Assembly (NCBI GenBank): GCA_018434245.1
Contig: JAHDPQ010000098.1
Span: 29,777-93,776 of the forward strand
Source of the DNA: Oscillospiraceae bacterium
Lineage (GTDB): Bacteria > Bacillota > Clostridia > Oscillospirales > Ruminococcaceae
Length of the DNA stretch: 64,000 nt
Direction of reading: 5' to 3'
Positions 34,873 to 55,402 of this stretch are shown in pieces. Numbering within the stretch: position 1 is the stretch's first letter; every line of letters begins with the position of its first letter. Made by a program: the position numbers and the translations under genes. The notes beneath the pieces were generated by a model. It did not search any database and was not told the DNA's origin. It was given only the letters and a program-made list of their open reading frames with translations.

Positions 34873-35186
34873 TAGGCTTCCTCCTCCTGCCGGGCCAGAT
34901 CGCCCCGGCCCCGGGTGCTGTCCAGATTGTGTACGTGTACATAATCCCCCGGCGCAATGGTGGCGGAGGCAGTGCCGATCACCTCGCCGTATTTGCGAAT
35001 ACTCTCCCCCGGGGCAATGGGGGAGACGGCGATTTTATGGCCGTAGGGAATGGCTGCCGCCGCTGACAGAGTCTGACGGTTGCCCGCCTGATCCAGCACG
35101 GTGATCTCATCCCCGGCGGTGACCCCCTCGCAACATACGGTGGCCACGTTGTCTTGGTCGTGAACTTTCAGGCCAATTGAGTTCAT
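34872..35186 (-). CDS. SAF-domain small subunit (UxaA N-terminal / SuyA-like)
   Basis: 104 residues, a whole SAF domain (NVATVCCEGVTAGDEITV...IPYGHKIAVSPIAPGESIRKYGEVIG), with conserved HK in GHKIA and KYG. It is the partner of the large subunit encoded next and completes the active site. The last base of its stop codon is shared with the start of the large-subunit gene. Length and split design match SuyA, but also stand-alone UxaA N-terminal proteins. Confidence 0.92.
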   Translation of the reverse strand: MNSIGLKVHDQDNVATVCCEGVTAGDEITVLDQAGNRQTLSAAAAIPYGHKIAVSPIAPGESIRKYGEVIGTASATIAPGDYVHVHNLDSTRGRGDLARQEEEA

Positions 35187-35206
35187 GAGGCATTCTCCCT
35201 CTCTTT

Positions 35207-39246: not shown

Positions 39247-40470
39247 TTAGGGGTGATGGACTTGGGGCTTTACCTGGGCCTTGCGATAGATGAGATACAC
39301 CAGTGCAATCAGAGCCAGGGTGGTGATGAGAGCGGCCTGAAAGCAGAGGCGGTAGCTTCCGGTGGCGTCGTAGACCAGTCCGGCAAAGGCAATGCCCATT
39401 CCTCCGGTGGCCGAAGACACCATGGAGGCGATGGAAAGCGCCATGGAGTACTGATGGGCTGGGAACAAATCCTGCACCATCAACGGTACCGCGACCGGGA
39501 CCATGGCAAGGCAGATGCCGTAGAGTGCGGAGGCGATATACAGCAAAAACTCCTGATTGGGAAAGAGCAAAAACAAAGCGAATCCTGCCACCATCAGAGC
39601 TGCGCCCCAAATAGAGACCCATTTGGCAGAACACTTTCTGCTCAGCCAGCCGATGGCCACCTTGCCCCCTACATTGCTAACCATGGACATCGATGCCATA
39701 GTTGCCCCCACAAAGGAGCTCAGCCCCACAGAGACGGCATAGGTGGAAAAATGAAACACATAGGAGCTGGGATAGGCAATCATCAGCACGGCGGCCAAAA
39801 ACATCCACAAAATGGGCTGCCTCAGCAGGTTGCCGCCTTGAACTGTGGGCTGTGCTTCTGACCGGGATACCACGGCAGCGTCTTGGGGAGGCATCCGCAA
39901 CACCAGCAGGGTGCAGGGAAGAATGGTTACCGCTCCCACTCCCGCAAAGAGAAGATAGGCACAGCGCCATCCCCACTGCTCGGACCACCAGGTGCCTAGG
40001 GGGCTCATTACCGCTCCCCCCAGTCCGGTAAAGGCCATGGCAATGCCGATGGCCATGCCGCTCCTTTGGGGGAACCAATGGGTGAGAAGAATGGGGGTAG
40101 CCGTCAGAAAGAGGAAGGCTCCCGCCACTCCGGCAAAGGCCGAGGCGATGTACCACTGGTATAGATGGTGGAAGAAGGCCATGCTGAAGGTGGAGCCGCA
40201 AAGCATTACTCCGGCGGCGGTGAGCAGGGTTTTGGGGCTTACCCGGGAAAACAACCAGCCGGAAAGAGGTAAAAACAGCGTGGTGACAAGGCCGCGAATG
40301 GTGGTATGCAGAGAGAGCTGGGCGGTAGAAAAGCCCAGCTCTTTGCAGACGTAGGGGTAAAAAATCCCCATGGAGTTGGATTGTACCCCCATCCCCCCAA
40401 ACTGAAGGAGACAGCAACCTGCCAGAATTAGATAAGGGGAGATGGGAGGACGAGACCTTGTGTTCTTCAT
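39247..40470 (-). CDS. MFS transporter
   Basis: 407 residues, about twelve membrane segments. An arrangement such as GWLFSRVSPKTLLTAAG between helices 2 and 3, and GWLSRKCSAKWVSIWG between helices 8 and 9, fits the MFS. The N-terminal half recalls oxalate/formate and monocarboxylate carriers. It ends the long minus-strand sugar cluster, overlapping the epimerase gene by 4 bp, so it may export an acid product or import a second substrate. Confidence 0.9.
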   Translation of the reverse strand: MKNTRSRPPISPYLILAGCCLLQFGGMGVQSNSMGIFYPYVCKELGFSTAQLSLHTTIRGLVTTLFLPLSGWLFSRVSPKTLLTAAGVMLCGSTFSMAFFHHLYQWYIASAFAGVAGAFLFLTATPILLTHWFPQRSGMAIGIAMAFTGLGGAVMSPLGTWWSEQWGWRCAYLLFAGVGAVTILPCTLLVLRMPPQDAAVVSRSEAQPTVQGGNLLRQPILWMFLAAVLMIAYPSSYVFHFSTYAVSVGLSSFVGATMASMSMVSNVGGKVAIGWLSRKCSAKWVSIWGAALMVAGFALFLLFPNQEFLLYIASALYGICLAMVPVAVPLMVQDLFPAHQYSMALSIASMVSSATGGMGIAFAGLVYDATGSYRLCFQAALITTLALIALVYLIYRKAQVKPQVHHP

Positions 40471-41750
40471 GCGTCGTGAGCGTGGAGCAGCTCCAGAATC
40501 AGCAGCAGATTCCGAATGATGTGGTAGGGGTCCTTGACCGGCAGGGCCACCACTTTATCTTGAGGAGAGCCGTCCTGCTTGAGGATCTGTACCCACTCCC
40601 GCACTTCCCGGTCGGGGTTGGGAAAATGCTGAAAGGTGTACTCAAAAATCTTCTGATGCCACTGCCAGAAGTAGTCGTCTCCGGTTTCCAGATAGCAGCG
40701 CAGGGTGGTGTAAAGAGCCTCCGAATGAACCCACCAAAGCTTGTCGGCCCACCCGTGCTTCATCTGAATCAGCATGGGCTCTTCCTCTACGCCGCCTTCC
40801 TCCCCTTCCGGCTTGCCGCCATGGATGCCGCAAAAGTGCAGCAGGCCGCCATATTCCGAATCCCAGCCGATTTCCAGCGTCTTGCGTACAATGCTGCGCG
40901 CCTGCTGGATCCACTGGGGCTTTTGGAGGTACTCCGCGCTGTTGAGGAGGAACCAAACATCCTCCAGAGTATGGCCGGGGTTGACGTGCTGCCCCAGAAT
41001 TTGGGGGATCTGCTGGTTGTCGCTGCCAATGACCTCCCGCACAATGTGGTTCTCGTCCGCAAAGTTTAAGAGGACGTCGGCGCTAAAGTGCTCCAGTCGG
41101 GCTTTAAGCTGGGGCAGAGCCTCTGTGTCGAACACCTCTGCCGCCAGAACCACTTCCCGGGTAGTGTCGTTTAGGATCATGGGGATGCCGTGGGCCCGGA
41201 ATTGGGGGGATAAGGGGTAGGGCAGGGTGTAGAAGTTGCCGCTATCGATCCTTGCAAGACAGGAATCAAACAGCTTCTTCGCGAAATTGTAAGCGCTTTC
41301 ATCTTTGGCAGCAATGGAGTAGCGGGCCATCCCCAACACCACAAAAGCGTCGGCGTAGATGCTCAGGTCCAAAGGCTGGCCGGGAGCTACCTCCTTGTGG
41401 TTCCCCATCTGATCCATCAGGAAGGAGCAGCGCCAGTCGTTGGGACCCATGAGGCAGTGTGCCTCCAAAAAGTCCCGCCCGCTTTTGGCAAGCTCCAGGA
41501 ACTCTTTGCGCTGGGCCTTGGTAAAGATAGGGGCTTCCATGGTGGCCAACCGGGAGAAAAGCCAGACAAAGCGGCCCTGGCTCCAGGTGTATTTGTCCTT
41601 GCTCACCATCTTGCTGCCATCGTTGGTGAAGCAGTTAAAATACCCTCCGTACTCCTGATCCAAGCATCGGGGCAGCCAAAAGGAAAGAATGTTGTTTACC
41701 AGCTCATTTTCATAAAAACCTGTTAAAAGTTGCCGAGATGCCAGTTCCAT
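40467..41750 (-). CDS. AGE-family (N-acylglucosamine 2-epimerase-like) isomerase
   Basis: 427 residues with the alpha/alpha-barrel pattern of the family: GYFNCFTNDGS, YTWSQGRFVWLFSRL, AYADAFVVLGMARY-like (IYADAFVVLGMARYS), NPGHTLEDVWFLLN and the closing WVHSEALYTTL. The conserved arginine and histidines of the AGE and cellobiose 2-epimerase site are present in these blocks. It would interconvert C2 epimers, for example ManNAc and GlcNAc, before NagA. The family also acts on mannose and cellobiose. It is 15 bp after nagA. Confidence 0.92.
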   Translation of the reverse strand: MELASRQLLTGFYENELVNNILSFWLPRCLDQEYGGYFNCFTNDGSKMVSKDKYTWSQGRFVWLFSRLATMEAPIFTKAQRKEFLELAKSGRDFLEAHCLMGPNDWRCSFLMDQMGNHKEVAPGQPLDLSIYADAFVVLGMARYSIAAKDESAYNFAKKLFDSCLARIDSGNFYTLPYPLSPQFRAHGIPMILNDTTREVVLAAEVFDTEALPQLKARLEHFSADVLLNFADENHIVREVIGSDNQQIPQILGQHVNPGHTLEDVWFLLNSAEYLQKPQWIQQARSIVRKTLEIGWDSEYGGLLHFCGIHGGKPEGEEGGVEEEPMLIQMKHGWADKLWWVHSEALYTTLRCYLETGDDYFWQWHQKIFEYTFQHFPNPDREVREWVQILKQDGSPQDKVVALPVKDPYHIIRNLLLILELLHAHDA

Positions 41751-41765
41751 GACCTGTATCGCTCC

Positions 41766-42950
41766 TTAATTTAAAAAGATTCCGCTGACGGGGCGGCCGC
41801 CAAACAAAGTGCCCTGGATATTAATGTTTTGGTCAAAGCAGATGAGGTCGGCGTCCTTGCCCACTGCGATGGAACCCTTTTTGTGACCCAGACCGATGAT
41901 GTTGGCCGGCGTGAGGGTTAGCATCCGCACACTGTCCTGCAGGGAAATATCGGCCTGCTGCATCATCACCCGCACCAGACGGTCGGTGGTGGCAATGCTT
42001 CCGGCAAAGGCGCTGCGGTCGGGGAGCTTAGCTACATCGTCCTCGATGATGACCCGTTGCCCTTTTTCCAGACTGCCCAGAATGGATTCCTTCACATCCT
42101 GCCCGGCGCACCGCATGGAGTCGCAGGTCAGGCAGACCTTTTCCACTCCCTTAAACCGGTAGACCATCTCCAGCAGCTCGGCGGGGAGATGACAGCCGTC
42201 GGCAATAAGCTCCACCGTCATATCCGGCAGAATAAAGGCGCTTTCCAACACGCCGGGATAGCGGAACCCGCTTTTCCGCACAATGGTGGACATGGCGGAG
42301 TACAGGTGGGTGACATGGGTGTACCCGTGGTGGAAGGCCTCCTGCACCTGCTGGAACTCTGCGTTGGAATGACCGATGGAGGGCAGAATTCCCTCTCGTG
42401 CCAAACGGTCACCAAAGGCCAGAGCGCCCTTGAGCTCCGGGGCCACGGTCCAGCGGGAAATAGCACCCTTGCCGTACTCCAGAAACTCCTCGTACTCCAT
42501 CGGGTCGGGCTCGCGGATATACTTTTCGTCGATGGCTCCCTTTTGCTCCACGTTGAGGTAGGGGCCCTCCATGTGGAGGCCGGGCAGGTAAGGCCCATTG
42601 GTGAGAGCCTTGCGGGCTTCCCGGAAGCCGTCGATGCTCCGCAGGATTTCTTCCCGGGTGGCAGCCAGAGCAGTAGGCAAAAGGGTGGTGACGCCGTGTT
42701 CAAAGTGGGTGAGAGCGGCGGTGGTGTAGGCTTCCAGAGTGCCGTCCATAAAGTCGCAGCCCCCTGCCCCGTGGGTGTGTATCTCCACAAATCCGGGGGC
42801 CAGATACAGCCCTTTTAGGTCGATCTTCTGCCCTTCCAGCTCCACATTGCCCTGCTCGATGGCAAAGATTTTGCCGTCCTCTACCACCACCGTGCCGTCC
42901 ATCACCCGGTGAGGCAGAACTACTTTTGCATTTGTAAGAAGGTATTTCAT
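41766..42950 (-). CDS. nagA: N-acetylglucosamine-6-phosphate deacetylase
   Basis: 394 residues from ATG 42950 (an in-frame GTG 42959 is the alternative). Amidohydrolase fold with metal motif EIHTHGAGGCDFMDG near residue 59, the substrate and metal residues in SIGHSNAEF and HVTHLYSAM, and catalytic aspartate in CDSMRCAG. It removes acetate from GlcNAc-6-phosphate, giving glucosamine-6-phosphate for NagB. The gene follows nagB after 15 bp. Confidence 0.93.
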   Translation of the reverse strand: MKYLLTNAKVVLPHRVMDGTVVVEDGKIFAIEQGNVELEGQKIDLKGLYLAPGFVEIHTHGAGGCDFMDGTLEAYTTAALTHFEHGVTTLLPTALAATREEILRSIDGFREARKALTNGPYLPGLHMEGPYLNVEQKGAIDEKYIREPDPMEYEEFLEYGKGAISRWTVAPELKGALAFGDRLAREGILPSIGHSNAEFQQVQEAFHHGYTHVTHLYSAMSTIVRKSGFRYPGVLESAFILPDMTVELIADGCHLPAELLEMVYRFKGVEKVCLTCDSMRCAGQDVKESILGSLEKGQRVIIEDDVAKLPDRSAFAGSIATTDRLVRVMMQQADISLQDSVRMLTLTPANIIGLGHKKGSIAVGKDADLICFDQNINIQGTLFGGRPVSGIFLN

Positions 42951-42965
42951 TGCCTTCACCCCGCC

Positions 42966-43736
42966 TTACTGAATTTCGGCAGCGGCGGCCGCATCCAAAA
43001 ACAGAGTGGCGTTCTTGTGGTTTCTGAGAACGGAAGCCGGGCAGGCAGTGGTGATGTCCCCTTCCAGCATGTTTTTGATGGCCTGAGCCTTGGTGGCTCC
43101 GGGTACACTGCACACCAAAAGTCCTGCTTTAAGGATGGCGGGAATGGTGACGGTGACCGCGTGGGTAGGCACATCGGAAAGTGCGGGGAAGCAGCCGTCG
43201 TTTACCTGCTGGCGTCGGCAGGCTTCTTCCAGCTCCACCGTCTTGACAGCCAGAGGATCGTTAAAGTCGGCAACGGGGGGATCATTAAAGGCAATGTGAC
43301 CGTTTTCCCCCACGCCCATCAGAGTCATGTCCAGAGGATGGGTGCGTAGCAGCTCGGCATAGCGCTTGGTCTCCTCCTCGATATCGGCGGCGTTGCCGTT
43401 GATCAGGTTGACGCTGCGGAACGGCAGGGCGTCAAAGATGTTCCGGCGCAAAAAGTTGCCGAATCCTGCGGGATGATCAGCTTGCAAGCCGATGTACTCG
43501 TCCATGTGGAAGGCATTGACCCGAGTCCAGTCAATCTCCTTGCAGTTTTTCAGGTAGGCCAAAGTTTCATTCTGGGAGGGTGCGGCGGCAAACAGAACGT
43601 TAGCCTCCTGCTTTTCCCGTAAAAGAGCCACCAAGTACTCGGCGGCTACCTGACCCGCACAATCTCCCATTGCCTTCCGGTCCGAAAAAATACGCACCCG
43701 AAGGTTATCTTTGGTAAACTCTTTTCTTGTCATCAT
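42966..43736 (-). CDS. nagB: Glucosamine-6-phosphate deaminase
   Basis: 256 residues. It converts glucosamine-6-phosphate to fructose-6-phosphate and ammonia, feeding glycolysis. Visible motifs: NAFHMDEYIGL (catalytic Asp), GVGENGHIAFNDPP (ring-opening His and Glu) and VTVTIPAILKA. The N-terminal substrate loop reads FAAAPSQNETL, close to but not identical with the usual SGSTP-type phosphate loop, so relatives acting on other amino sugar phosphates should be considered. Start ATGATG after GAGGGG. Confidence 0.9.
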   Translation of the reverse strand: MMTRKEFTKDNLRVRIFSDRKAMGDCAGQVAAEYLVALLREKQEANVLFAAAPSQNETLAYLKNCKEIDWTRVNAFHMDEYIGLQADHPAGFGNFLRRNIFDALPFRSVNLINGNAADIEEETKRYAELLRTHPLDMTLMGVGENGHIAFNDPPVADFNDPLAVKTVELEEACRRQQVNDGCFPALSDVPTHAVTVTIPAILKAGLLVCSVPGATKAQAIKNMLEGDITTACPASVLRNHKNATLFLDAAAAAEIQ

Positions 43737-43750
43737 GGTTGTGCACCCCT

Positions 43751-45025
43751 CTATTCATATAAAAAAGTATCTGCTCCGTTGCTAATGGCAGCCAGCCGGC
43801 CGCCGGGATACTGGGCCATGGCATCGTCGATGGCTTGTTGCAGCTGGGCCAGCGGGTAGTGAATACAGCCGCACAGGGCCATTTCCTCCCGGGTGACTCC
43901 GTCGCCCACCACCACCAGCCTGCGCCGGCGGCGCATTTTGGACATGCTGTTCCCCACGGCGATGGCCAGAGGATCGCCCAGACCCTTCTCCCCCCGAATG
44001 CAGGCCCGCACCAGATCGTCGCCGTCGTCCCGTCCCATCACATCGGGATACTCGGGATGAGGGCCGATTCCCTCGTAATTGGGGCTGACCAGAATCATGG
44101 TTCCGCCCTGCTCACCTTTGAGAGCGGGCTCGGCTGCATACATGGCCTTGGGGGACTGCCAGAAGTCCTGATCGGCAGGATGGCTGCCGGCCACCACCAC
44201 ATCCACCTGTTCCGTTACCCGGTAGCCCAAAAGCTGTTGAGCCAGACGGACACCTTCCCGGTGTGCATGGATGTAATGACCTGCCACCACCCTGCAAATA
44301 TCGAACTGATCGTTGAGTACCGTATTGATGATAAAGTGGAGCCCAATGGAATCCACCCAATTTTCCATCATCTCCCGAACGGGAGTGGTGCTGTGCCCAA
44401 ACAGGTTTTCCTCTACCAGCCCCCCTTTTAAATGGAAGTAAGCGACGGTGTGTTCGCCGGTCACTCCGGGATAGAGAATTTTGCCGCCTCCACCCCAGCC
44501 CATGACGGGATGAGGGGCAAGGTTTCCCACTCCAATGCGGATGTCGCTTTCCATCACGCATTTGGAGACCAGAATCTCCACGCCTTCGGGGGTATGACCT
44601 ACACTGATCAATCCCTCCGGCCTGCGGAATTCCGAGTTCATCACCTCGCAGCGAGCAAAGATGTCCTCCCCTACCCGCTGGCGCAGCTCCTCCTGGGTCA
44701 TGTAACGATGACTGCCCAAAGCCACCACAATCCGCACATCCCGGTCGGCAATGCCACAGGCGTTAAGCCGGGCCACCAGACAGGGCAAAATAGTGCTGAT
44801 GGGGGTGGGTCGGGAGATATCGTCTACAATGATGCAGATTTTTTGACCGGGCTTTACCATTTCCTCCAGCGGCTGGGCGCCAATGGGATGATCCAGGGCA
44901 TACTCCAGTTCCGCCAGAGGATTTTGAGCAGCTTGGGCCGGCTGGGGGTCGTACATTCCGGCAAAGGAGGCATCCCCTACCGCAAAGCTAACCTGCTCCT
45001 TGCCATAAGGAAGGGTTACCTTCAT
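43751..45025 (-). CDS. Second LarA-family protein (nickel-dependent hydroxyacid epimerase-like)
   Basis: 424 residues. The nickel-pincer residues are kept with a -2 offset: H106 (GSHRY), H172 and K182 (APHPVMGWGGGGK), H198 (AYFHLK), while the loop is DDISRPTP rather than DHTRP. Gly-rich GWGGGGKILYPG differs from the first LarA at 35207-36475. It belongs to a different subgroup and so probably a different 2-hydroxyacid. In this cluster the substrate may be a sugar acid or lactyl group. Its start overlaps the HIT gene stop by 4 bp. Confidence 0.88.
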   Translation of the reverse strand: MKVTLPYGKEQVSFAVGDASFAGMYDPQPAQAAQNPLAELEYALDHPIGAQPLEEMVKPGQKICIIVDDISRPTPISTILPCLVARLNACGIADRDVRIVVALGSHRYMTQEELRQRVGEDIFARCEVMNSEFRRPEGLISVGHTPEGVEILVSKCVMESDIRIGVGNLAPHPVMGWGGGGKILYPGVTGEHTVAYFHLKGGLVEENLFGHSTTPVREMMENWVDSIGLHFIINTVLNDQFDICRVVAGHYIHAHREGVRLAQQLLGYRVTEQVDVVVAGSHPADQDFWQSPKAMYAAEPALKGEQGGTMILVSPNYEGIGPHPEYPDVMGRDDGDDLVRACIRGEKGLGDPLAIAVGNSMSKMRRRRRLVVVGDGVTREEMALCGCIHYPLAQLQQAIDDAMAQYPGGRLAAISNGADTFLYE

Positions 45026-45477
45026 ACAGACAGCCCCCTCTTTTGACGCGCGGCCCGGGCAATCTGCTCCATGCGTTCATTGTACTCTTTCTGGCTGAGA
45101 ATGACAAGGTCCTTTTCCTCGGGAAAGAGAACAAAGGGCTTGCCCCAGCCCAGCTTATCCTTGTATTTGGGGCAGAGGGTTAAGTGAACATGACGCACTT
45201 CGTCCCCATAAATAGCATAGTTGATCTTGTCGGCGCCAAACACCTCGGTGATGGTTTGAGCCAAGGCGCAGACGTCATCCATAAAGTCATCCCGCAAATC
45301 TTTAGGAATATCGTACAGTTCCTCATAGTGTTCCCGGAACATGATGGTGCAGCGGCCGGGCAAGGTTTGGTCCCGGCAGAGGAACACGGTGGATACTTTT
45401 AGATCACACAGGCGGAATAGCACGCTCTGGAACTGTTCATCCTGTTCACAGTAAAAACAACCTGGTTTGCGCTCCAT
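45022..45477 (-). CDS. HIT-family protein
   Basis: 151 residues from ATG 45477, with AGGAG 9 nt upstream. The histidine-triad-like motif is HVHLTLCPKY near residue 103, with an N-terminal CFYC pair that may bind zinc. HIT proteins hydrolyse or transfer nucleotide groups (Fhit, HinT, GalT-like). Third histidine is replaced, so catalysis may follow the GalT-like HxHxQ variants or be lost. It is fixed inside the sugar operon, 18 bp from the permease gene. Confidence 0.75.
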   Translation of the reverse strand: MERKPGCFYCEQDEQFQSVLFRLCDLKVSTVFLCRDQTLPGRCTIMFREHYEELYDIPKDLRDDFMDDVCALAQTITEVFGADKINYAIYGDEVRHVHLTLCPKYKDKLGWGKPFVLFPEEKDLVILSQKEYNERMEQIARAARQKRGLSV

Positions 45478-45495
45478 AATAGGCATCTCCTAATT

Positions 45496-46344
45496 CTATT
45501 TTACCGCACCGGCTGTTGCGTTTCCGGTGATGTAATTGCGGATGAGGATAAACAACACCACCAGCGGCACTGTGGCACAGACCGCTCCCGCCATGACCAG
45601 ATGCCATGGAATTCCCACCGCGGGGTTGTTTTTTAGGACCTCGTAAAGACTGACGATAATGGTTTTCTTTTCGGTGCTGGACATAAAGGTAAAGGCAAAC
45701 AAGAACTCGTTCCAGCTGCGGGTAAAGGCGTAGATGACGGCGACGGCAATCCCGGTGCGGGAAATGGGCACAAAGATCCACACCAGAGTCATAAAGGAGT
45801 TGCAGCCGTCTATTTTGGCGGCTTCCACCGTCTCTTTGGGCACGCTGTCAAAGGTGGCCTTCAGCATCAGCACAATAAAGGCCAGATTAAAGGTGATGTT
45901 CATAATCACAAGGCTAAGGCGATTGTCAATCAGCCCCATGCGGTTCATCAGGTTATACAGGGGGATGATGACGATGACCGGAGCGAACATCTGGCTGACC
46001 AGTACCATGTAGTAGACCGGCTTCTTCATCACAAATCGGAGCTTGGAAAGAGCAAAGGCTGCGGGGATTCCCAGCAGCATGATGCCGCCGATGGAGGCTG
46101 CCGTAATCAAAATGCTGTTGAGAAACCCGGTGGTCATCTTCATCTTGCCAAAGACGGCAGGGTAGTTTTCCCAAGCTGTGTGTTTGGGAATCCAGGTCAC
46201 CGGAACGGTGAAGACATCGTTGGCCTGCTTGAGGGAAACCGAGATCATGGCCACAATGGGAAAGAGCATGATAAAGAGAATCAGCAGCACCAGCAGGCCA
46301 AAGAAAATCCGCTTGACGGTTTTAATGGCGGAAGGCTTATTCAT
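45496..46344 (-). CDS. Carbohydrate ABC transporter permease, MalG-like
   Basis: 282 residues from ATG 46344 with AAGGAG upstream. Six membrane segments and an EAA loop (KETVEAAKIDGCNSFMTLVWIFVPISRTG). CUT1 family sugar permease, paired with the MalF-like gene that it overlaps by 8 bp. Confidence 0.94.
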   Translation of the reverse strand: MNKPSAIKTVKRIFFGLLVLLILFIMLFPIVAMISVSLKQANDVFTVPVTWIPKHTAWENYPAVFGKMKMTTGFLNSILITAASIGGIMLLGIPAAFALSKLRFVMKKPVYYMVLVSQMFAPVIVIIPLYNLMNRMGLIDNRLSLVIMNITFNLAFIVLMLKATFDSVPKETVEAAKIDGCNSFMTLVWIFVPISRTGIAVAVIYAFTRSWNEFLFAFTFMSSTEKKTIIVSLYEVLKNNPAVGIPWHLVMAGAVCATVPLVVLFILIRNYITGNATAGAVK

Positions 46345-47221
46345 AGGATACATCTCCTTCCTTGGAGCGGACATAGAGCAGAGCAAAGATCGAAAGGATC
46401 ACAAAGCAGACCACGCTCACCGCCGCCGAGTAGGGCCGGTTGTTAAACTGGAAGGCATTCTGATAGATGTTACTTACCAGAATGGAGGAGGAGTTGGCGG
46501 GGCCGCCCTGAGTCATCATAAAAATAACGTCAAAGGAGTTAAAGGCCCAGATGCCCACCAACAGTCCCAGCGTGCGCATGGAAGACGCAATCAGGGGCAG
46601 GGTGATCTTAAAAAAAGACTGGATGCTGCCTGCACCGTCAATTTTGGCAGCTTCGTAGATATAGGTGGGGATGGAATACAACGTGGAAAGAATGTTAAGA
46701 GCACAAAAAGGCGCTACCGCCCACACGTTGACAATCATCACCGCCAGCAGGGAGGTTTTGGTGTTCCCCAAAAAGTTTAAGGGTTCACTGATCAGCCCCA
46801 GCCGGGTGAGAATATCCCCAATATGCCCAAACACGGGGTTGTACATCAGCCGCCAGATCATGCAGGAAACCGCCGCCGGCATGGCGTAGGGAATGAGGAT
46901 GATGCCGGTCATCACCTTTTTGCCGGGAAAGGCCTGATACAGTACCAGTGCCATGCCCAAACCAAACAGCAGCTTGAAAAACGTGCCCACAAACACCCAG
47001 ATGCCGGTGTTGAGCAGCAGCCGGGATGTTTCCCGGTGGCGGATGAATTTAATAAAGTTGTTCAGCCCCACATAAAAATACTGACCGGTAGAAGTACGGT
47101 CATAAACGGAGAGATTAAAAACCTCTGTAATGGGATAGATAATAAATGCTGCGAAAACAGCCAGCATAGGTAAAATGTAAAGCAGGTTCAGCAGATTTTC
47201 CCGCCGGTTGGCCTGTTTCAT
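46337..47221 (-). CDS. Carbohydrate ABC transporter permease, MalF/UgpA-like
   Basis: 294 residues, six membrane segments, with EAA loop YEAAKIDGAGSIQSFFKITLPLI. Partner of the MalG-like permease. With the binding protein it makes a CUT1-type importer; no ATPase gene is present, so the system probably shares a housekeeping MsmX-like ATPase from elsewhere. Confidence 0.94.
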   Translation of the reverse strand: MKQANRRENLLNLLYILPMLAVFAAFIIYPITEVFNLSVYDRTSTGQYFYVGLNNFIKFIRHRETSRLLLNTGIWVFVGTFFKLLFGLGMALVLYQAFPGKKVMTGIILIPYAMPAAVSCMIWRLMYNPVFGHIGDILTRLGLISEPLNFLGNTKTSLLAVMIVNVWAVAPFCALNILSTLYSIPTYIYEAAKIDGAGSIQSFFKITLPLIASSMRTLGLLVGIWAFNSFDVIFMMTQGGPANSSSILVSNIYQNAFQFNNRPYSAAVSVVCFVILSIFALLYVRSKEGDVSYE

Positions 47222-47415
47222 GGCTTCTCCTCCAATTCTTATGACCGCCTTAGGAGATCACTGGAATCATACTATTCTGCTTCTGCGATGGAAGGCGGAA
47301 TGCTCTCATCCGGCAATCCGATTGCCGCTGGGCCAAAGCCTCAGGCGGATAGTATGGCAGAACATCAGTGCGCTGGTACAAAGAATGTCCCCTTCCCTTT
47401 TGGATGGGGATAAGC

Positions 47416-47451
47416 GGTGTGGGCAAAAAACCGCAGTCCTTCGCCCACACC
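47416..47451 (-). other. Intercistronic hairpin between binding protein and permease genes
   Basis: 9-bp perfect stem GGTGTGGGC / GCCCACACC with an 18-nt loop just after the binding-protein stop. No tail T-run, so probably an mRNA-stabilising element that favours excess binding protein. The rest of 47222-47415 shows nothing clear. Confidence 0.6.
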
Positions 47452-47461
47452 AACCTATTCC

Positions 47462-48775
47462 TTACTTCTGGAGCAGTTCGTCTACCATGGGGCCGGCTTC
47501 GGCAAAGGCCTCGGCGGGCGTCATCTCGCCCATCACCGCTTTGGTGATATAGTCGGCCATTACTTTTTGTACTTCCTCCCAGCTGGAGATGGTAGGCTTA
47601 AACTTGGCCAGAGGCTCCAGCTCGGCAAAGGGAGCTACCATCACGTTGGCGGGATCGGTAAAGGCGGGACGCTCAAAGAAGCTCTTCTGGTTGGGAACCC
47701 AACCGGCCTGCTCGATCACGTCGCCCATGCGGTCCTTGGTGTGCCAGAATTCCAGCCACTTTCCGGCGGCTTCCTCATTGCCGGTCTTGAACACCAGGTC
47801 CACGTCCATGATACCCAGAGAGTACTGGGAACCGCCGGCTCCCTTGAGAGGTGCGCCAATCACAGCCCAGCTGTAGTCCTCGCCGGCATCGGCCAGAGCA
47901 GCCAGCCCCTGAGCGTTGTGGATGTAGGCAGCAGCAGTCTGGGTGGTGAAGTTGTTCTGAGTGAAGTTAATATCGGCTTCGCCGTAATCGGGCACGGCAT
48001 ACTTGGCCAGATCGCAGTAAACTTGCAGGGCGGCCACGCCGTTTTCGTTGTTAAATCCGTTGGTTTTGCCGTCGGCAGAGGCTACGTCGCCGTCATAGGC
48101 CCACAGAATGGGCAGGAAGCAGTCCAGAGTGTTCTTGGGATGTCCCGCTACCATGGAGTAAGCGTACTTGCCGCCACCCACCAGCTTAGGGGCAACTTCC
48201 AAAAACTCCTGCCAGGTGGTGGGCAGCTCGGTGATGCCCGCGGCATCCAGCAGGTTCTTGTTGTACAGGATGGAGCGGATGGACATGTAGGAGGGCAGTA
48301 CCCACAGCTGACCATCTACGGTGCAGACGTCCAGAGCAGCTTTGGAGAAGTCATCTTTCAGCTCTTGGCTGATCAGGTCGTCCAGAGGCACGGTGTAGCC
48401 CAGATTTTTAAACTGCTGGGTCCAGCCGGAAAAGCCGTACATGGCGTCTGGGGGAGTGCCGGCTTCACACAGAGTGATGATCTTCTGGTAGGCATCGGAA
48501 TATGCCCAGGATTCCAGCTTGACCTTGATGCCGGTTTCTGCCTCAAATTCTTCGGCAGCTTTTTGCAGCTGATTCATGCCGGTGTCACCCAAAGTGACAT
48601 AAGTAATGGTGGTACCCTCTGCAGGAGCGCTGTCACCGGAAGGAGCGGCTTCGCTTCCGCTGGAAGGTGTGCTTGCCGCAGGGGAAGCGGGAGGCGTAGG
48701 GTCAGAAGGGGCCGAACAGGCGGCCAGAGCCACTGCCAGCAATAGAGACAGTGCCAATGCGATTGCTTTTTTCAT
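47462..48775 (-). CDS. Sugar ABC transporter substrate-binding lipoprotein
   Basis: 437 residues from ATG 48775, after AAGGAGAAG. Signal peptide with lipobox LAACS; the mature protein begins at C20 with a Ser/Pro/Ala linker to about residue 50. The family 1 extracellular binding fold starts TITYVTLGDTGMNQLQKAAEEFE. It captures a carbohydrate outside the cell. The substrate is unknown, but the NagAB genes point to an amino sugar or a glycan fragment. The opening 23 codons of the longer frame are rejected. Confidence 0.93.
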   Translation of the reverse strand: MKKAIALALSLLLAVALAACSAPSDPTPPASPAASTPSSGSEAAPSGDSAPAEGTTITYVTLGDTGMNQLQKAAEEFEAETGIKVKLESWAYSDAYQKIITLCEAGTPPDAMYGFSGWTQQFKNLGYTVPLDDLISQELKDDFSKAALDVCTVDGQLWVLPSYMSIRSILYNKNLLDAAGITELPTTWQEFLEVAPKLVGGGKYAYSMVAGHPKNTLDCFLPILWAYDGDVASADGKTNGFNNENGVAALQVYCDLAKYAVPDYGEADINFTQNNFTTQTAAAYIHNAQGLAALADAGEDYSWAVIGAPLKGAGGSQYSLGIMDVDLVFKTGNEEAAGKWLEFWHTKDRMGDVIEQAGWVPNQKSFFERPAFTDPANVMVAPFAELEPLAKFKPTISSWEEVQKVMADYITKAVMGEMTPAEAFAEAGPMVDELLQK

Positions 48776-48898
48776 GTTTCTTCTCCTTTGAATTTTTATA
48801 GAGTGAGTGCAAAACGTTCCGAACCCTCGGAACGAGAAAAACAAATGAAAGCCCCCAATCGGGAATCTATCAGCGCAATACCTTAACCAGCTTAGGCT

Positions 48899-49852
48899 TT
48901 AATCCAAAAACCGGCCTTCCATAACAGCTCGGTTGTCCACGGGAGCCACAATTTCGCCATAAAGCTCCGGGCGTCGAAAACACAGCATATCCTCTCGCAG
49001 ATAATCGATTCCGCCCCGGCGGGCCATTGCAACGTCTTTTCCGATCTTGGGGATGTCCAGGTCGATTTCCGCCATGGCAATTCCCGGATAGTGGCCGGTC
49101 TCCGCTATGATCAAACCCTCGTGATTGATGATCATGGCCCGGCCGGTCATGGCGTGGCCCGGGCTGTAGGGGGCGTAGTAGTCGGGGCTGGCAAAGTTGG
49201 AAGTCACCAACACGCAGTGGTAGTCGATAGCCTTGGAGCGGGCCATGATCTGCAGGGTTTCCTCCGAAGGGCCATAGGTCTGATGAGGCCAGAGAATCAT
49301 CTCGGCGCCCTTGAGGGTCAGAACACGGAACACTTCGGGAAAGTAAATATCCATACAGATGGCGATACCCACGACACCAAAATCCAGATGGAACACCGGG
49401 AGCTCGTCTCCGGCACTAATGCCAAAGCAGCGCTTTTCGTTGGCGCAGAGATGGGTTTTGCGGTACTTGCCGGCCACCTGTCCCTGCCGGTCTATCACAA
49501 CGGCGGTGTTGTACATCTTGCTGCCGTCCAGCTCGGTGTAGTTGGCCACCACATACATGCGGTACCGGGCGGCCAATGCCCCCAGACTTTTGGTGAGGGG
49601 CCCGGGAATGGGCTCTGCAATCCGGTGGCGCACCTGGGAATAGTCGGTGCCTTCCAGATACAGGTTTTGCTGTGTACCTTCCAGCTCGGCAGCTCCAAAG
49701 CTGTCGAAATGTTCCGGCAGCAGCACCAGGTCACAGCCTGCCTTTCCCGCCTGCTCCAGCATATTTTCGCAGAGCTCAACATACTCCCGACGGGGAATGG
49801 GCTGCAGATGCAGGATTCTGGAAATGGTGCCTATTTTTACCATACGTCCCAT
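48899..49852 (-). CDS. Carbon-nitrogen hydrolase (nitrilase superfamily)
   Basis: 317 residues from ATG 49852 (GAGGGA upstream). Catalytic triad E47 (LLPEHFD), K132 (KYRKTHL) and C166 (GIAICMDIYFPE). Members hydrolyse amides, N-carbamoyl compounds or nitriles, or transfer acyl groups. Within an amino sugar cluster an amidase step on an N-acyl or carbamoyl group is plausible. It precedes the transporter genes and follows the SIS gene by 19 bp, so it belongs to the same transcript. Substrate unknown. Confidence 0.92.
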   Translation of the reverse strand: MGRMVKIGTISRILHLQPIPRREYVELCENMLEQAGKAGCDLVLLPEHFDSFGAAELEGTQQNLYLEGTDYSQVRHRIAEPIPGPLTKSLGALAARYRMYVVANYTELDGSKMYNTAVVIDRQGQVAGKYRKTHLCANEKRCFGISAGDELPVFHLDFGVVGIAICMDIYFPEVFRVLTLKGAEMILWPHQTYGPSEETLQIMARSKAIDYHCVLVTSNFASPDYYAPYSPGHAMTGRAMIINHEGLIIAETGHYPGIAMAEIDLDIPKIGKDVAMARRGGIDYLREDMLCFRRPELYGEIVAPVDNRAVMEGRFLD

Positions 49853-49871
49853 ATTGCTTCCCTCTTTTGGC

Positions 49872-50516
49872 CTATAAATGCCGGATACGTTCCAGATACG
49901 CATCCAGTGTTTTTTCATTGCTGCTGCTTTTGGGAAAGCCTCTTCCCTGCCACAGGGGCGGAACTTTGCAGCCCTCTGCGGCCTTTTGCAGCAAAACGTC
50001 CAGCACAATGGAAAAAGCAGCGGCCATCATACCGTCTGCGAGGTTTTCAGCAGGTCCCAGGTCAATGAAGATGCAGCCCTCCGCAGTTTTTTGGAAAAGC
50101 GGGGCGATGACAATCACCCGGAGCTCTTTACCAAGGGCGTGTTCCACGGCTTCCCGGAACATCCGGCTGGAAGGGTCCTCGCTTAGCAGCAAGATAGCAT
50201 CCCCCGGTTGGATGTTCTCATAGTAATCCAGCACACAGGGAGCAAGGCCTTCCAAATCCCGGCACAGACTGCTGCGCCAGGCACCGTGGGCAATATCCAG
50301 AGAAGGGTCCAGAATGGGATTGAGATTGGCCAGCCCGCCTCCCCGGAAAAAGACAGTGCCGATGAGGGAGCTGGTAAAGGGCTGTGCTCCAAAGATATGT
50401 ATCAGGCGGTTTTGATTCGTAGTTTCCGCCAGGAGGGCGGCCGCCTGCCGGATTTCTTTCTGGTTTTGCCCCAAGGAGGGCAGATAGGCTGCAGCCTGAC
50501 TCAAATAGCGTTCCAT
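49872..50516 (-). CDS. SIS-like domain protein, divergent paralogue
   Basis: 214 residues. It aligns by eye with the two other SIS proteins here: IFGAQPFTSS, FRGGGLANLNPILDP, then IAHGAW. The usual GPGGHS loop is changed to GAQPFTSS and the following RxxxxxRxxG part is altered, so sugar-phosphate binding may be lost or different. It may be a regulatory partner of the SIS protein encoded 20 bp upstream. Length is short. Function unknown. Confidence 0.7.
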   Translation of the reverse strand: MERYLSQAAAYLPSLGQNQKEIRQAAALLAETTNQNRLIHIFGAQPFTSSLIGTVFFRGGGLANLNPILDPSLDIAHGAWRSSLCRDLEGLAPCVLDYYENIQPGDAILLLSEDPSSRMFREAVEHALGKELRVIVIAPLFQKTAEGCIFIDLGPAENLADGMMAAAFSIVLDVLLQKAAEGCKVPPLWQGRGFPKSSSNEKTLDAYLERIRHL

Positions 50517-50536
50517 CTCGTTTTCCTCCCCAAAGG

Positions 50537-51289
50537 CTACATACTTTTCACTTTTCCCCAGATACGTCCGATGTACTCCTGATTGGCCTCGATACCCCCT
50601 GCCTGCAGGGAGTTGGTCCAGGTAAAGGGATTTCCACCTTTTTTTCCAATGGCCACCATGGTTTGGGCCAGCAGGGCCTTGAGGACAATAGCCTGCATAA
50701 TGGTTGCTACCGGCGATATTTTATGTTCCAGCATATCATATTCCAAGACGGCGTCACCATAGGGAACCTTGCTGTCTAGATAATAATCCGCTACCTGATA
50801 CAGGCTTTTGCCGCTGCTGTGGCGGGCTCCCCCATAGGTGGAGGCATCGGAAAAGGTGGGAGAGGTTATGGCAATGACGGTAGCGCCTTTGGCTTTGCAC
50901 TCCAAAGCGCCCTGAATGGCCACCGGATTGATGCCATACGCGCTGCCAAACAGCACCACATCCCCCGGCCCAATCCGGTGGTATTCCACCACCACCCGGG
51001 CAAAGCCCTCTACCCGTTCCATGCCGTTGATTTCCCGGGCGGCCCCATGAGAAAGGGAGATGTTGGGGTCGTAAATGGGACACAGGGCAGCCAGCTCCCC
51101 CTTGCGGTACATGGCATCCTCCGAAAAAATAGAGGAATGTCCTCCCGGTCCCCAAAGGTATATCAGCTTGCCCGACAATACCTGTTCCGCCAGAAGGTCT
51201 GCGATTTCCGCCACCTTGGGGGACTCATCGTCCCGCACCCGGTCAATCAGCTCTTTTAAGGTCTCCAGATAGTCCAAAAAGGGCTCCAT
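50537..51289 (-). CDS. SIS (sugar isomerase) domain protein
   Basis: 250 residues from ATG 51289, with GGGAGGG 8 nt upstream. SIS fold with LWGPGGHSS near residue 40 and the shared pattern YRKGELAALCPIYDPNISLSHGAAR. SIS proteins bind phosphosugars; examples are GlmS, GmhA, KdsD and MurQ. This one belongs to the sugar-isomerase-domain group of uncharacterised proteins. First gene of the minus-strand cluster, divergent from a FadR-type regulator. Confidence 0.85.
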   Translation of the reverse strand: MEPFLDYLETLKELIDRVRDDESPKVAEIADLLAEQVLSGKLIYLWGPGGHSSIFSEDAMYRKGELAALCPIYDPNISLSHGAAREINGMERVEGFARVVVEYHRIGPGDVVLFGSAYGINPVAIQGALECKAKGATVIAITSPTFSDASTYGGARHSSGKSLYQVADYYLDSKVPYGDAVLEYDMLEHKISPVATIMQAIVLKALLAQTMVAIGKKGGNPFTWTNSLQAGGIEANQEYIGRIWGKVKSM

Positions 51290-51463
51290 GGCACAATCCC
51301 TCCCCATCAAATGGTCATATCAACAGATGATTCTGCTTTTATTATAATCAAATTGAAACTGTTCGTCTTTGCACAAAACGGTAGTTTTTGTTGCACATTT
51401 TAAAAAAACACCATATTTTTTATAGTTTACTACTATATTTTAACAAGTTATTACAAAAAATTA

Positions 51464-51496
51464 TTTACAACTTTCTCAAAATATGATATTATCATA
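51464..51496 (+). promoter_or_regulatory. Promoter and operator of the second FadR-type regulator
   Basis: TTTACA at 51464-51469, 17 bp, TATTAT at 51487-51492, overlapped by the palindrome TATGATA-T-TATCATA (51482-51496), which suggests autorepression. The AT-rich gap 51290-51597 also contains a minus-strand TATAAT near 51341 for the SIS gene. Confidence 0.65.
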
Positions 51497-51597
51497 ATAC
51501 CAATTGCAGAAAAGTGCAGAATAAGCGGATATAAAATGCCTTATCCCAAGTTCTGTTAGGGTGATGCGAACAGACCCAAAGGGTTAGGAGTGGTTTT

Positions 51598-52287
51598 TTG
51601 AAGGTAACGAGAGTGAAGTTGAGCGATCAGGTAGCCAACGAGATTCAAAACATGATTTTAAACAACGACTTTCAGGCTGGAGACAAGCTGCCGGTGGAAA
51701 ACGAACTGGCTAAAATGTTTTCCGTCAGCCGGATCACGGTGCGGGAAGCCATTAGTAAGCTGAGTCTCACCGGCATTATCGACGTGCGTCAGGGCGAGGG
51801 CACCTTTGTCAAGAAGCTGGGGCCGGAATCCTTTATGAAGCCGCTTCTTCCCATGCTGATGATGGGCAAAAAGGATATGCAGGATGTGCTGGAGGTGCGG
51901 CTGCTGATCGAATGCAAGAACGCCCAGCTAGCGGCCAAAAACGCCACCCCCGCCGAGCTTGCCAAGGTCAAGGCCTGCCTGGAAAAAATGGAACAGTGCG
52001 CCATGGAAGGGGACCTGGCTCAGTATAACCGGTATGATGCCAAATTCCACTACTTAGTGGCTAAATGCAGCCACAACCAGGTACTGGTCACCATTCAAGA
52101 ACTGCTGATGGATATGGTAACCAGCTCTATCGAAGTGACCATTCAGCCGCCCAACGCCCTTGCCACTTCCATTTTGCTCCACCGCAAAATTTACGAGGCC
52201 TTGCGCAACCACGATCAACAGGCCGCCTTTGAGTTCATGCAGCAGCATATCGGAGGCGCCGCCGGTTATGTGGACAGTAGCCTGTAG
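51598..52287 (+). CDS. GntR-family regulator, FadR/FCD subfamily
   Basis: 229 residues. Translation begins at TTG 51598, with AGGAG 7 nt upstream. Winged helix-turn-helix at residues 5-70 (ELAKMFSVSRITVREAISKLSLTG), FCD domain at about 80-220. Divergent from the SIS-nitrilase-transporter operon and upstream of an AraC gene, it probably controls that cluster in response to a small acid. It differs from the regulator at 36667 in its operator. Confidence 0.93.
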   Translation: MKVTRVKLSDQVANEIQNMILNNDFQAGDKLPVENELAKMFSVSRITVREAISKLSLTGIIDVRQGEGTFVKKLGPESFMKPLLPMLMMGKKDMQDVLEVRLLIECKNAQLAAKNATPAELAKVKACLEKMEQCAMEGDLAQYNRYDAKFHYLVAKCSHNQVLVTIQELLMDMVTSSIEVTIQPPNALATSILLHRKIYEALRNHDQQAAFEFMQQHIGGAAGYVDSSL

Positions 52288-52305
52288 TATTTGGGGAGAC
52301 ATGTC

Positions 52306-53094
52306 ATGCTGATTACAGATGTGCAGGTGCACAGCATCCGGAGAATCGAATCTCCCTCTGTTTTGGAAGCATCCCACCATGCCAGACTCCTGTTTGTGTC
52401 GGGAGAGGGCAGCTTAACCGGAGATGGGGGCACACTGGCCGTGTCCGAGGGGCAGTGCGCCTATCTACCCGGCAAAAGCAGCAGTTCCGCCAGAGGCAAG
52501 ATGACCCTGATTCAGATTACCTTTTCCACCGGCAACCAAAAGCTAGCCCAATGTCTGGGGCAGGTGCCCTGCATTTTACCGATCCGCAACCTTTCCGCCC
52601 GGGAAATCATCTTAAACATGATCTGGGAATGCAAACGCAAGACCCCTCACTGCCGGGATGCAGCCGGTCTGGGGTTGATGCGTCTGTTGTTCGAAGCCAT
52701 TGCCCAGCAAAACGAACAACAGGAGGATACGCCGGAACAATTCCAATGGGAAGCCTTTACGGACCCCATTATGCGACTGAGCGTCAATTATATCGACCAG
52801 CATCTGGCCGACGACGATGTGCTGGATCAAATCTGCACCATGGTCAACCGCAATCAGGCCCAACTCAACTACCTGTTTAAAAAATACGCTGGAATCACTG
52901 CTATGCAGTGGCTGGGACAGCGCAGGCTGCTCCGCTCCAAGGAGCTTCTCTGCTTTTCCAACTACACTATTACGGAAATAGCGGAAATGACAGGGTTTAA
53001 ATCCATTCATTACTTCAGCCGCTATTTTAAGAAAAAAGAGCTTATCAATCCGCAAAAATTCAAAGAGACATTATTGCCGGCCAATTTATTTTAG
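52306..53094 (+). CDS. AraC-family transcriptional regulator
   Basis: 262 residues from ATG 52306, with GGGGAG 7 nt upstream. N-terminal cupin-like sensing domain at about residues 15-110 and a C-terminal double helix-turn-helix (RNQAQLNYLFKKYAGITAMQWL and TITEIAEMTGFKSIHYFSRYFKKKE). It is 18 bp after the FadR-type gene, so the cluster has two local regulators. Effector unknown; a sugar is likely. Confidence 0.9.
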   Translation: MLITDVQVHSIRRIESPSVLEASHHARLLFVSGEGSLTGDGGTLAVSEGQCAYLPGKSSSSARGKMTLIQITFSTGNQKLAQCLGQVPCILPIRNLSAREIILNMIWECKRKTPHCRDAAGLGLMRLLFEAIAQQNEQQEDTPEQFQWEAFTDPIMRLSVNYIDQHLADDDVLDQICTMVNRNQAQLNYLFKKYAGITAMQWLGQRRLLRSKELLCFSNYTITEIAEMTGFKSIHYFSRYFKKKELINPQKFKETLLPANLF

Positions 53095-53163
53095 GGTTGG
53101 TTCCCATCCACGGGGTGTGAACGGTTTCAGGAGTTTGTACAGTTCAAGGTGTGGAGGGGGGAC

Positions 53164-53274
53164 ATGCCATATGTCAACGGGCAACAAGACGAAATGTTGA
53201 AAATGCCAAAGATGCGCTGGCAACCAGCCCTGAATGAGGTGGCGGCAAATTTGGAAAGGTTGGATTGGATATGA
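53164..53274 (+). CDS. Small ORF coupled to the third SIS gene
   Basis: 36 codons, starting MPYVNGQQDEMLKMPKMRWQ, with the strong site GGAGGGGGG just before its ATG. Its TGA overlaps the next gene's ATG in an ATGA arrangement, which is a hallmark of translational coupling. The C-terminus is helical and leucine-rich. No homologue recognised. It may be a real small protein or a coupling leader peptide. Confidence 0.5.
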   Translation: MPYVNGQQDEMLKMPKMRWQPALNEVAANLERLDWI

Positions 53275-54029
53275 GCAAAGAAATTGCAGGCTACAGGCAA
53301 CAACTGGGTGAAATACTCCAACAGATTGAGGGGGAAAGCCCCAGCATCCAAAAGGGAGCGGCCATCATTACCGATGCCATTATGGCGGATCGCACCGTTC
53401 ACGTCATCGGCCCGGGAGGACATTCCAACATCGGCGTGGAGGAGGTGCTGTGGCGGGCAGGGGGCCTTGCGGTCTGGAATGCCATTCTAGACCCAGGCAC
53501 CAATCTGATTCACGGGGCCAAGCGCTCCAATTTTATTGAGAGAACCCCCGGATACGCCAAAAGCGTGCTGGACGCCTACGGCGTGGGAAAGCAGCCGGGA
53601 GAGGTGATGGTGATTATCAACGCCTATGGCCTCAATGCCATGACCATTGACACAGTGGAAGAGTGTAAGCGCAGAGGGGTCACCACCATTGGCGTCACCT
53701 CCTCCTCTTTTGCCACGCTGGTTCCGGCAGGGCATAAGGCTCGTCACCCCAGTAACAAGAACCTCTTTGAAGAAGTGGACATTTTTATCGACAACCATCT
53801 GCCCCCAGGGGACGCTGTGGTTGCCATCGAAGGCTTTGGAGAAAAGGTGGGTTCCACCTCCACCTTCTGCAACTGCTTTGTGATGAACTGCCTGGTGATC
53901 GAAGCCGTCAAGCTTTTAATTGCCAGAGGCGTCACCCCTCCGGTTTTTATGAGTGCCAACATGCCGGGGGGCGACGAGCACAACAAAGCCATGGAAGAAA
54001 AATACGCCGGCATCATCAAACATTTATAA
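53271..54029 (+). CDS. SIS (sugar isomerase) domain protein
   Basis: 252 residues from ATG 53271, chosen by the ATGA overlap with the small ORF; an in-frame TTG at 53265 is the alternative. VHVIGPGGHSN near residue 43, then WRAGGLAVWNAILDPGTNLIHGAKR, as in the paralogue at 50537. A C-terminal arm VGSTSTFCNCFVMNCLVIEAVKLL adds to the fold. Plus-strand arm of the divergent sugar cluster, ending near a strong hairpin. Role unknown. Confidence 0.85.
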   Translation: MSKEIAGYRQQLGEILQQIEGESPSIQKGAAIITDAIMADRTVHVIGPGGHSNIGVEEVLWRAGGLAVWNAILDPGTNLIHGAKRSNFIERTPGYAKSVLDAYGVGKQPGEVMVIINAYGLNAMTIDTVEECKRRGVTTIGVTSSSFATLVPAGHKARHPSNKNLFEEVDIFIDNHLPPGDAVVAIEGFGEKVGSTSTFCNCFVMNCLVIEAVKLLIARGVTPPVFMSANMPGGDEHNKAMEEKYAGIIKHL

Positions 54030-55278: not shown

Positions 55279-55402
55279 GGAAGCAACCCTCTTTCTATAT
55301 AATATGTATTTGCAGAACGGACATCCTGCCTTTATCCTTATAATAAGGGTTGCTGTTGCTATAAGGTCAACCGGGATATTTGGCAAAATAATAACAAAAT
55401 CT

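Follow-up and report, generated by a model that had tools for sequence, protein, structure and literature searches.

Gene organization of the LarA2-NagB cluster

The window analysed here, a stretch of 64,000 nucleotides from an Oscillospiraceae bacterium (contig JAHDPQ010000098.1; source assembly of 3.11 Mb in 185 contigs, 91% complete), carries at positions 39247-54029 a cluster of 15 genes, in which a nickel-pincer nucleotide (NPN)-type 2-hydroxyacid epimerase of the LarA superfamily, designated LarA2, is encoded beside a variant NagB and other enzymes of amino-sugar metabolism. Twelve genes lie on the minus strand (39247-51310) and three on the plus strand (51598-54029). By increasing coordinates, the minus-strand run encodes a major facilitator superfamily (MFS) transporter (39247-40470), whose best NCBIfam models (SfMCT lactate, bile-salt and D-galactonate) all scored far under cut-off; an AGE-family 2-epimerase (40467-41750); a NagA-family deacetylase (41766-42959); a NagB-like isomerase/deaminase of a variant subfamily (42966-43736); LarA2 (43751-45025); a HIT-family protein with an HVHxT motif (45022-45486); the ABC permeases PermB (45496-46386) and PermA (46337-47221), assigned by sequence and conserved place rather than by a Pfam scan; a sugar ABC solute-binding protein (47462-48844); a nitrilase-superfamily protein (CN-hydrolase); and two SIS_2 proteins, SIS1 and SIS2. 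A GntR regulator, an AraC-family regulator and a third SIS protein, SIS3, are encoded on the plus strand. Neighbouring minus-strand genes overlap as in an operon, by a few bases for MFS/AGE and LarA2/HIT and by up to 50 bases, depending on the start, for the permeases. The original prediction, made from the sequence alone, had counted the twelve same-strand genes correctly, the HIT gene having gone unnamed; the two regulators and the SIS gene that it placed divergently were found as described, and no kinase or phosphotransferase system (PTS) gene, which it had also reported missing, occurs among the fifteen genes.

LarA2 and NagB are linked across distant genomes

Relatives of LarA2 were collected by a pattern scan, less sensitive than a full search, of the genome contigs of a collection of 84,980 species, yielding 15 loci, 13 at 60-95% identity and two at 34-37%. 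The 13 close relatives include C. citroniae, C. asparagiforme, bins of Oscillospiraceae, Clostridia and Christensenellaceae, and one Spirochaetaceae bin, and in nine of them NagB adjoins the LarA2 copy. Among these nine NagB-type relatives, the importer (binding protein plus two permeases) and AGE were each present in eight, and NagA adjoining NagB, HIT and GntR in six each. Eight other clusters encode a binding protein 60-94% identical to that of the window, and ten loci a HIT protein at 57-95% identity; a common type of ligand is therefore probable for the clusters. The other four loci (L039, L040, L042 and L043, of which L040 and L043 are short contigs) have a second layout, GH109-HIT-LarA2, with GH109 and HIT directly upstream; their GH109 is 88-91% identical to the L042 copy, and GH20 is found in two of them and AGE in one. 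A GDSL esterase, a CitMHS transporter and a heparinase II/III-like SLH protein also lie nearby in one or two of these loci. Outside the shared block, the neighbours in L036, L037, L041 and L047 formed nothing coherent.

Within the same family, a LarA match was detected in 43 of 148 genomes, and none apart from the window's own was more than 35% identical to LarA2. As a control, 100 NagB neighbourhoods were taken from the NagB matches listed in 396 genomes of the same order, comprising 40 with an AAPSQ loop (group A), 20 with an STG.SQ loop (group B) and 40 canonical ones, each extending no further than 7 kb to either side of NagB and in some cases curtailed by a contig end. At a threshold of E 1e-8, a LarA or SIS gene was found in none of the 100, and AGE in 4/40 canonical and 0/60 variant loci. 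The LarA-NagB pairing is thus specific to this cluster type; the cluster is real and the linkage is not chance. Co-occurrence in other genomes, on which the original prediction had let its proposal stand or fall, is accordingly observed. Its remark that it knew of no published pathway with this gene set also agrees with our literature search, in which no description of the set was found in the open-licence literature (main texts, as distinct from the supplementary tables of LarA papers); for hexosaminuronate catabolism nothing to the point appeared among the 12 papers listed out of 5,446, and for a lactate racemase with both Nag enzymes the only match was one iron-regulation paper.

LarA2 has a pocket signature of its own

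By alignment (LpLarA numbering), LarA2 keeps the residues tested in LarA, namely NPN-binding Arg75, Lys184 and His200 and catalytic Asp72, His108, His174 and Lys298, together with Gln295. Its predicted structure (mean predicted local distance difference test score, pLDDT, 84.3) superposes on the LarA structure 5huq_A with a template modelling (TM) score of 0.84. Positions 175/176/358/359 sort the LarA activities, reading F, F, W and E/Q in lactate racemases and E, V, A and H in D-gluconate 2-epimerases, with H/Q and K at 358/359 in the malate racemase group (PMC11770544). LarA2 of the window reads P, V, L and A, and across the 13 loci V is replaced by T in two paralogues and the last position is A or S. 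This matches none of the group signatures described in the accessible part of PMC11770544: it differs from the lactate racemase signature throughout and has only V in common with that of the gluconate epimerases. Trp356 and Gln357 of LarAIp (PMC11851776) correspond to Leu and Ala in LarA2, in agreement with the last two signature positions. LarA2 scored below every NCBIfam LarA cut-off; malate racemase, the best match (NF052593), was rejected at 292 bits against a cut-off of 500, the signature lysine being absent as well.

LarC scored above cut-off elsewhere in the genome, and the two genes just upstream of it match the AIR carboxylase family, to which LarB belongs, and the ATP-pyrophosphatase family, consistent with LarB-like and LarE-like functions; on these grounds the host can probably make the LarA cofactor. 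A second LarA cluster in the window (31121-36475 and 36667-37335) encodes LarA1, a galactarate/altronate-dehydratase-type protein, an aminotransferase, a D-2-hydroxyacid dehydrogenase and a GntR-like regulator, and looks like a separate hydroxy-acid pathway.

NagB, NagA and AGE depart from their canonical forms

NagB of the window scored under the NagB equivalog cut-offs. In molecular simulations of the Streptococcus mutans enzyme (SmuNagB), the phosphate was contacted by Ser37, Thr38, Arg127 and Lys194, and Arg159 served as a gate (PMC8369159); motifs and residue offsets were used to locate these positions in B. subtilis NagB, and the sites were counted in all 100 controls. The phosphate loop, ATG[SAG][TS]P in canonical NagBs, reads AAAPSQ (Ser37 to Pro, Thr38 to Ser) in the window, in nine cluster NagBs and in 40/40 group-A loci, and the canonical loop, scored as [AS]TG[SAGK][TS]P, was present in 40/40 canonical controls versus 0/60 variants. 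The lid, NDGCF in the window, has Gly at the position of Arg159, as in 40/40 group-A and 20/20 group-B loci; the arginine is absent from the cluster NagBs too, and from 9/40 canonical ones; the position is Lys in the first NagB of L045 and L046, whose second NagB copies are of the group-B type.

The control loci also differed in their neighbours, a Gfo/Idh-type gene lying in the operon of 13/40 group-A versus 1/40 canonical loci (Fisher p 0.0007, three homology clusters being read as Gfo/Idh-type). Gfo/Idh Pfam matches were obtained for 25 of 121 scanned group-A neighbour proteins, in tallies that list the top 25 families; the Pfam scan covered 121/139 group-A and 80/98 canonical proteins and left out the 62 group-B neighbours, the omitted proteins being mostly short or near-duplicate and a few (e.g. 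those of L119 and L136) passed over by no fixed rule. Among loci L099-L138, an AAAPSQ NagB without the lid arginine often accompanies NagA, Gfo/Idh oxidoreductases and xylose-isomerase-like proteins.

In NagA, the phosphate-contacting Asn of MsNagA is Ser; the mycobacterial enzyme requires an anionic group on C6, which may also be sulfate. AGE contains the PF07221 domain (121.8 versus 23.4 bits) and falls below the NF052547 equivalog cut-off. Of the N-acetyl pocket residues of nAGE10, Phe116, Ala173 and Ile177 (PMC6333288), the ten cluster AGEs keep Ile177 and have Gly for Ala173 and Tyr for Phe116, as mapped by eye through the 2gz6 alignment. The predicted structure of HIT was too poor for use (mean pLDDT 49).

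The SIS proteins and the CN-hydrolase form an accessory module

SIS1 (49872-50516, minus strand), SIS2 (50537-51310, minus strand), SIS3 (53265-54029, plus strand) and the CN-hydrolase (48899-50008, minus strand, scanned from an inner start as 48899-49852) occur together in four of the ten NagB-type clusters, namely the window, L038, L044 and L047, the L044 CN-hydrolase being only 24% identical. In L045 and L046 the module is represented by a SIS3-like gene alone (40-42%), in or near a second operon, and six of the nine NagB-type relatives are without the SIS1/SIS2 pair yet keep LarA, NagB and the importer. L035, with 82-92% DNA identity to the window and a 95% identical LarA2, lacks three blocks bounded near gene boundaries, namely SIS3, SIS2-SIS1-CN-hydrolase and most of NagA, and retains LarA, NagB, AGE, HIT and the importer; L035 is a metagenome bin, in which an assembly fault is possible for the missing blocks. 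Since clusters without SIS1 and SIS2 keep it, LarA belongs to the core, and the SIS1-SIS2 pair, SIS3 and the CN-hydrolase are an accessory module.

The SIS proteins are of the UPF0309/PRK02947 type and not MurQ, SIS2 and SIS3 exceeding the cut-off of this model and SIS1 falling below it, in line with the earlier remark that the SIS genes are not clear MurQ orthologues. SIS2 matches the structure of NagS (PDB 9eol, E 5e-28), and the NagS catalytic positions His53, Arg64, Glu94 and Asp179 are retained by alignment in both SIS2 and SIS3; in the degenerate SIS1 only the Arg64 position is kept. Of the NagS phosphate serines 54, 119 and 121, SIS2 keeps 54 and 119 and SIS3 keeps 54, with Ser121 replaced by Tyr in both and Ser119 by Asn in SIS3, i.e. 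SLS becomes SAY in SIS2 and NAY in SIS3. A NagS function is not claimed for SIS2 or SIS3 by family, since three NagS homologues of 26-36% identity lacked NagS activity (PMC12680351). Elsewhere in the genome, a SIS3-like protein that also has NAYG stands at L200 (G000:C14, 2410-10556) in a row with an ABC transporter, a HAD phosphatase, an Amidohydro_2 protein and a NagA-like amidohydrolase. A 2,4-diaminopentanoate-dehydrogenase-like gene (window 54244-55386) adjoins SIS3 and is kept in L035 at 99% identity, and a group II intron reverse transcriptase lies near the L038 cluster (388-1806).

Regulators and a candidate operator

The GntR regulator (51598-52287, plus strand) was assigned by domain scan to the FCD subfamily, whose members mostly sense organic acids, and the AraC-family regulator (52291-53094, plus strand) was likewise identified by domain scan. 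In the divergent promoter region, a palindrome ATGAT-N3-ATCAT (51483-51495) occurs once in the window (0.07 expected) and is a candidate GntR operator. L035, L036 and L037 each have one copy in the corresponding intergenic region, and the palindrome also occurs inside LarA2 of L045 and L046 and in L177; partial matches can be made out by eye in L041 and L044, and the remaining loci searched, L047 among them, have none, save two that overlap the window site.

A proposed route for acidic N-acetylhexosamines

Taken together, we tentatively read the cluster as an operon dedicated to the breakdown of an N-acetylhexosamine (HexNAc) that is acidic and probably unphosphorylated, a reading to which we give a probability of about 0.35. 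The ABC importer would take up the acidic sugar, LarA would invert the carbon adjoining the carboxylate, AGE would invert the sugar C2, NagA would remove the acyl group and the NagB-like enzyme would isomerise and deaminate the product. The most specific version supposes an N-acetylhexosaminuronic acid, with the C6 carboxylate replacing the C6 phosphate: an open-chain uronate is a 2-hydroxy acid of the type that LarA uses, because its C5 hydroxyl adjoins the C6 carboxylate, so that LarA could invert C5. For example, N-acetyl-L-gulosaminuronic acid (L-GulNAcA) might be converted to the D-manno epimer (D-ManNAcA) by LarA, to the D-gluco epimer (D-GlcNAcA) by AGE, to the free D-glucosaminuronic acid (D-GlcNA) by NagA and to fructuronate plus ammonia by NagB. 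A hexosaminuronate is favoured because it gives LarA a 2-hydroxy acid within the imported molecule, and it agrees with the changed phosphate loop of NagB and with a regulator of the FCD type. Also counted in favour of the reading are the conservation of the gene set, the intact catalytic residues of LarA2 and the LarB-, LarC- and LarE-like genes, the missing lid arginine of NagB and the replaced phosphate serines of SIS2 and SIS3. The accessory module may handle a substituted form, e.g. by 2,3-elimination and amide (uronamide) hydrolysis; the substrate class, the order of the steps and the roles of the SIS proteins and the CN-hydrolase are what we infer.

Other NagB contexts in the same genome hint at acidic substrates. 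At L069 (G000:C54, 4993-11979), a TRAP transporter, NagA, a variant NagB (STGASQ type, 35% identical to the window NagB) and an aldose 1-epimerase-like gene lie together, with no kinase among the genes scanned; at L068 (G000:C36, 201-6617), TctA-TctB-UxaC-TctC, which encode a TTT transporter and UxaC, precede a NagB remnant interrupted by in-frame stops and then a LacI regulator. TRAP and TTT transporters usually carry carboxylates. UxaC is present twice in the genome.

A good deal weighs on the other side. In the 91%-complete genome, UxuA scored below cut-off and the UxuB/UxaB-type family gave no match. The small, hydrophobic pocket of LarA2 does not resemble the gluconate-epimerase signature, and most of the relatives that the binding protein has in the PDB bind sugars in general. 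The GH109 and GH20 genes that accompany LarA2 in the second layout suggest neutral glycans of N-acetylhexosamine. The original prediction had held that NagB needs a 6-phosphate; the changed loop speaks against that need, and in its favour the phosphate lysine (SmuNagB Lys194) is kept in the window, in the cluster NagBs and in 40/40 group-A loci. Thr38 to Ser is a mild change, and the Arg127 position, Glu in all variant NagBs, is not counted as evidence because it is variable in canonical ones (R in only 5/40). Variant NagB is moreover widespread in loci that have no LarA, where Gfo/Idh-type genes are frequent neighbours, and its altered site therefore does not necessarily imply a uronate. NagA exceeded the cut-off of the GlcNAc-6-phosphate deacetylase model TIGR00221 (282.9 versus 225.65 bits; GlcNAc, N-acetylglucosamine) and has basic residues at its conserved arginine in both alignments, and L035 is without it. 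The AGE pocket is only partly of the N-acetyl type because all ten copies have Tyr at one of the three positions, as in epimerases of unsubstituted sugars (PMC6333288). The SIS2 and SIS3 serine changes alone prove nothing because the S54A, S119A and S121A mutants of NagS still worked (PMC12680351). HIT has no role in the scheme, yet is present in 10/13 relatives. Finally, the L038 operon contains an APH-family kinase-like gene (16172-17320), 8 bases after MFS, which is the sole kinase seen in these operons.

Several of these points would also suit ordinary use of N-acetylmannosamine (ManNAc) or GlcNAc, with the kinase encoded elsewhere and LarA riding along to serve a separate hydroxy acid, an explanation that we consider doubtful and that nonetheless fares best among the alternatives. 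The NagA score, the retained NagB lysine and the L038 kinase all agree with it, and four ROK proteins encoded at other sites of the genome exceeded their cut-off. The lack of a nearby kinase is uninformative, because blastp with this genome's ROK proteins found a match in 0/40 canonical nagB loci as well (0/40 group-A, 1/20 group-B), and an APH-type kinase was present in 2/40 canonical loci. Against this explanation stand the altered NagB phosphate loop, the sub-cut-off scores of NagB and the altered SIS serines, and also LarA2, whose gene overlaps that of HIT within the operon and remains linked to NagB in distant taxa.

The original prediction had itself proposed a lactyl- or glyceryl-linked amino sugar of the muramic type. 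In the fuller version considered here, a SIS etherase would free a 2-hydroxy acid from it for LarA to racemise and the MFS transporter to export, while NagA, NagB and AGE process the sugar. This idea has been weakened and now appears unlikely. In its favour, the catalytic residues of NagS are conserved in SIS2 and SIS3, which are members of its family, a published tree relates NagS to MurQ (PMC12680351), the lactate transporter model gave the best MFS score, albeit far below cut-off, an FCD-type GntR fits an organic acid, and a glycerate kinase lies near the L047 cluster. Against it, no MurQ (TIGR00274) was matched over cut-off in the 91%-complete genome, LarA, NagB and the importer persist in the six of nine clusters without SIS1/SIS2, LarA2 lacks the lactate-racemase signature, and characterised mycobacterial NagA does not take MurNAc-6-phosphate (MurNAc, N-acetylmuramic acid). 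Glycerate was set aside, glycerate kinase having no match in the window's 91%-complete genome. An N-hydroxyacyl amino sugar (e.g. N-lactoyl or N-glyceroyl), from which NagA would free the 2-hydroxy acid that LarA inverts, joins NagA, LarA and AGE without SIS and suits the room that Leu/Ala should leave for other 2-hydroxy acids, but is highly improbable, as L035 keeps LarA without NagA and characterised mycobacterial NagA has little activity even on N-glycolyl substrates.

Returning to the acidic N-acetylhexosamine operon, its boldest form would be a catabolic route that needs no kinase and takes the N-acetylhexosaminuronic acids (and the uronamides) found in microbial polysaccharides. A nickel-pincer enzyme would invert the open-chain uronate at C5, so that L-sugars become D-sugars, and re-tooled NagA, NagB, AGE and SIS proteins would use the C6 carboxylate in place of a phosphate; so complete a scheme is unlikely, and less probable than the general reading. 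The presence of the cluster in the cultured species C. citroniae and C. asparagiforme makes it experimentally testable.

Comparison with known systems

To our knowledge, a physiological role has been established for only a few LarA groups. LarA2 sits in a conserved pathway, and identifying its substrate could extend LarA to a new class of compounds and reveal how amino-sugar enzymes might work without the usual phosphate handle. With the Nag/Nan amino-sugar pathways, the cluster shares three enzyme families (NagA, NagB and AGE) in one operon; unlike them, it adds LarA, HIT and UPF0309 SIS proteins, has no kinase or PTS gene and has an altered NagB loop. MurNAc catabolism by the MurQ etherase has in common with it the SIS fold and a possible link to lactate, and differs in the MurQ that is missing over cut-off here and in the LarA signature. 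SIS2 and SIS3 share the four catalytic residues of NagS (SCO4393), the GlcNAc-6-phosphate dehydratase of Streptomyces (PMC12680351), but one (SIS2) or two (SIS3) of the three phosphate serines are changed, and SIS1 is degenerate.

Among the LarAs, those of Blautia wexlerae and Streptococcus plurextorum, proposed to act in carbohydrate metabolism, also have sugar genes nearby, including a glucosamine-6-phosphate isomerase in the Blautia neighbourhood, and their second catalytic histidine is an asparagine (PMC12611868); LarA2 retains the histidine and is distant from them (16-18% identity in the structure comparison). With the superfamily of NPN-dependent 2-hydroxyacid racemases and epimerases as a whole, LarA2 shares the fold and the NPN-binding and catalytic residues, and relative to the LarA groups described in the accessible part of PMC11770544 it stands, with its 13 relatives at 60-95% identity and its unmatched pocket, as a group of its own.

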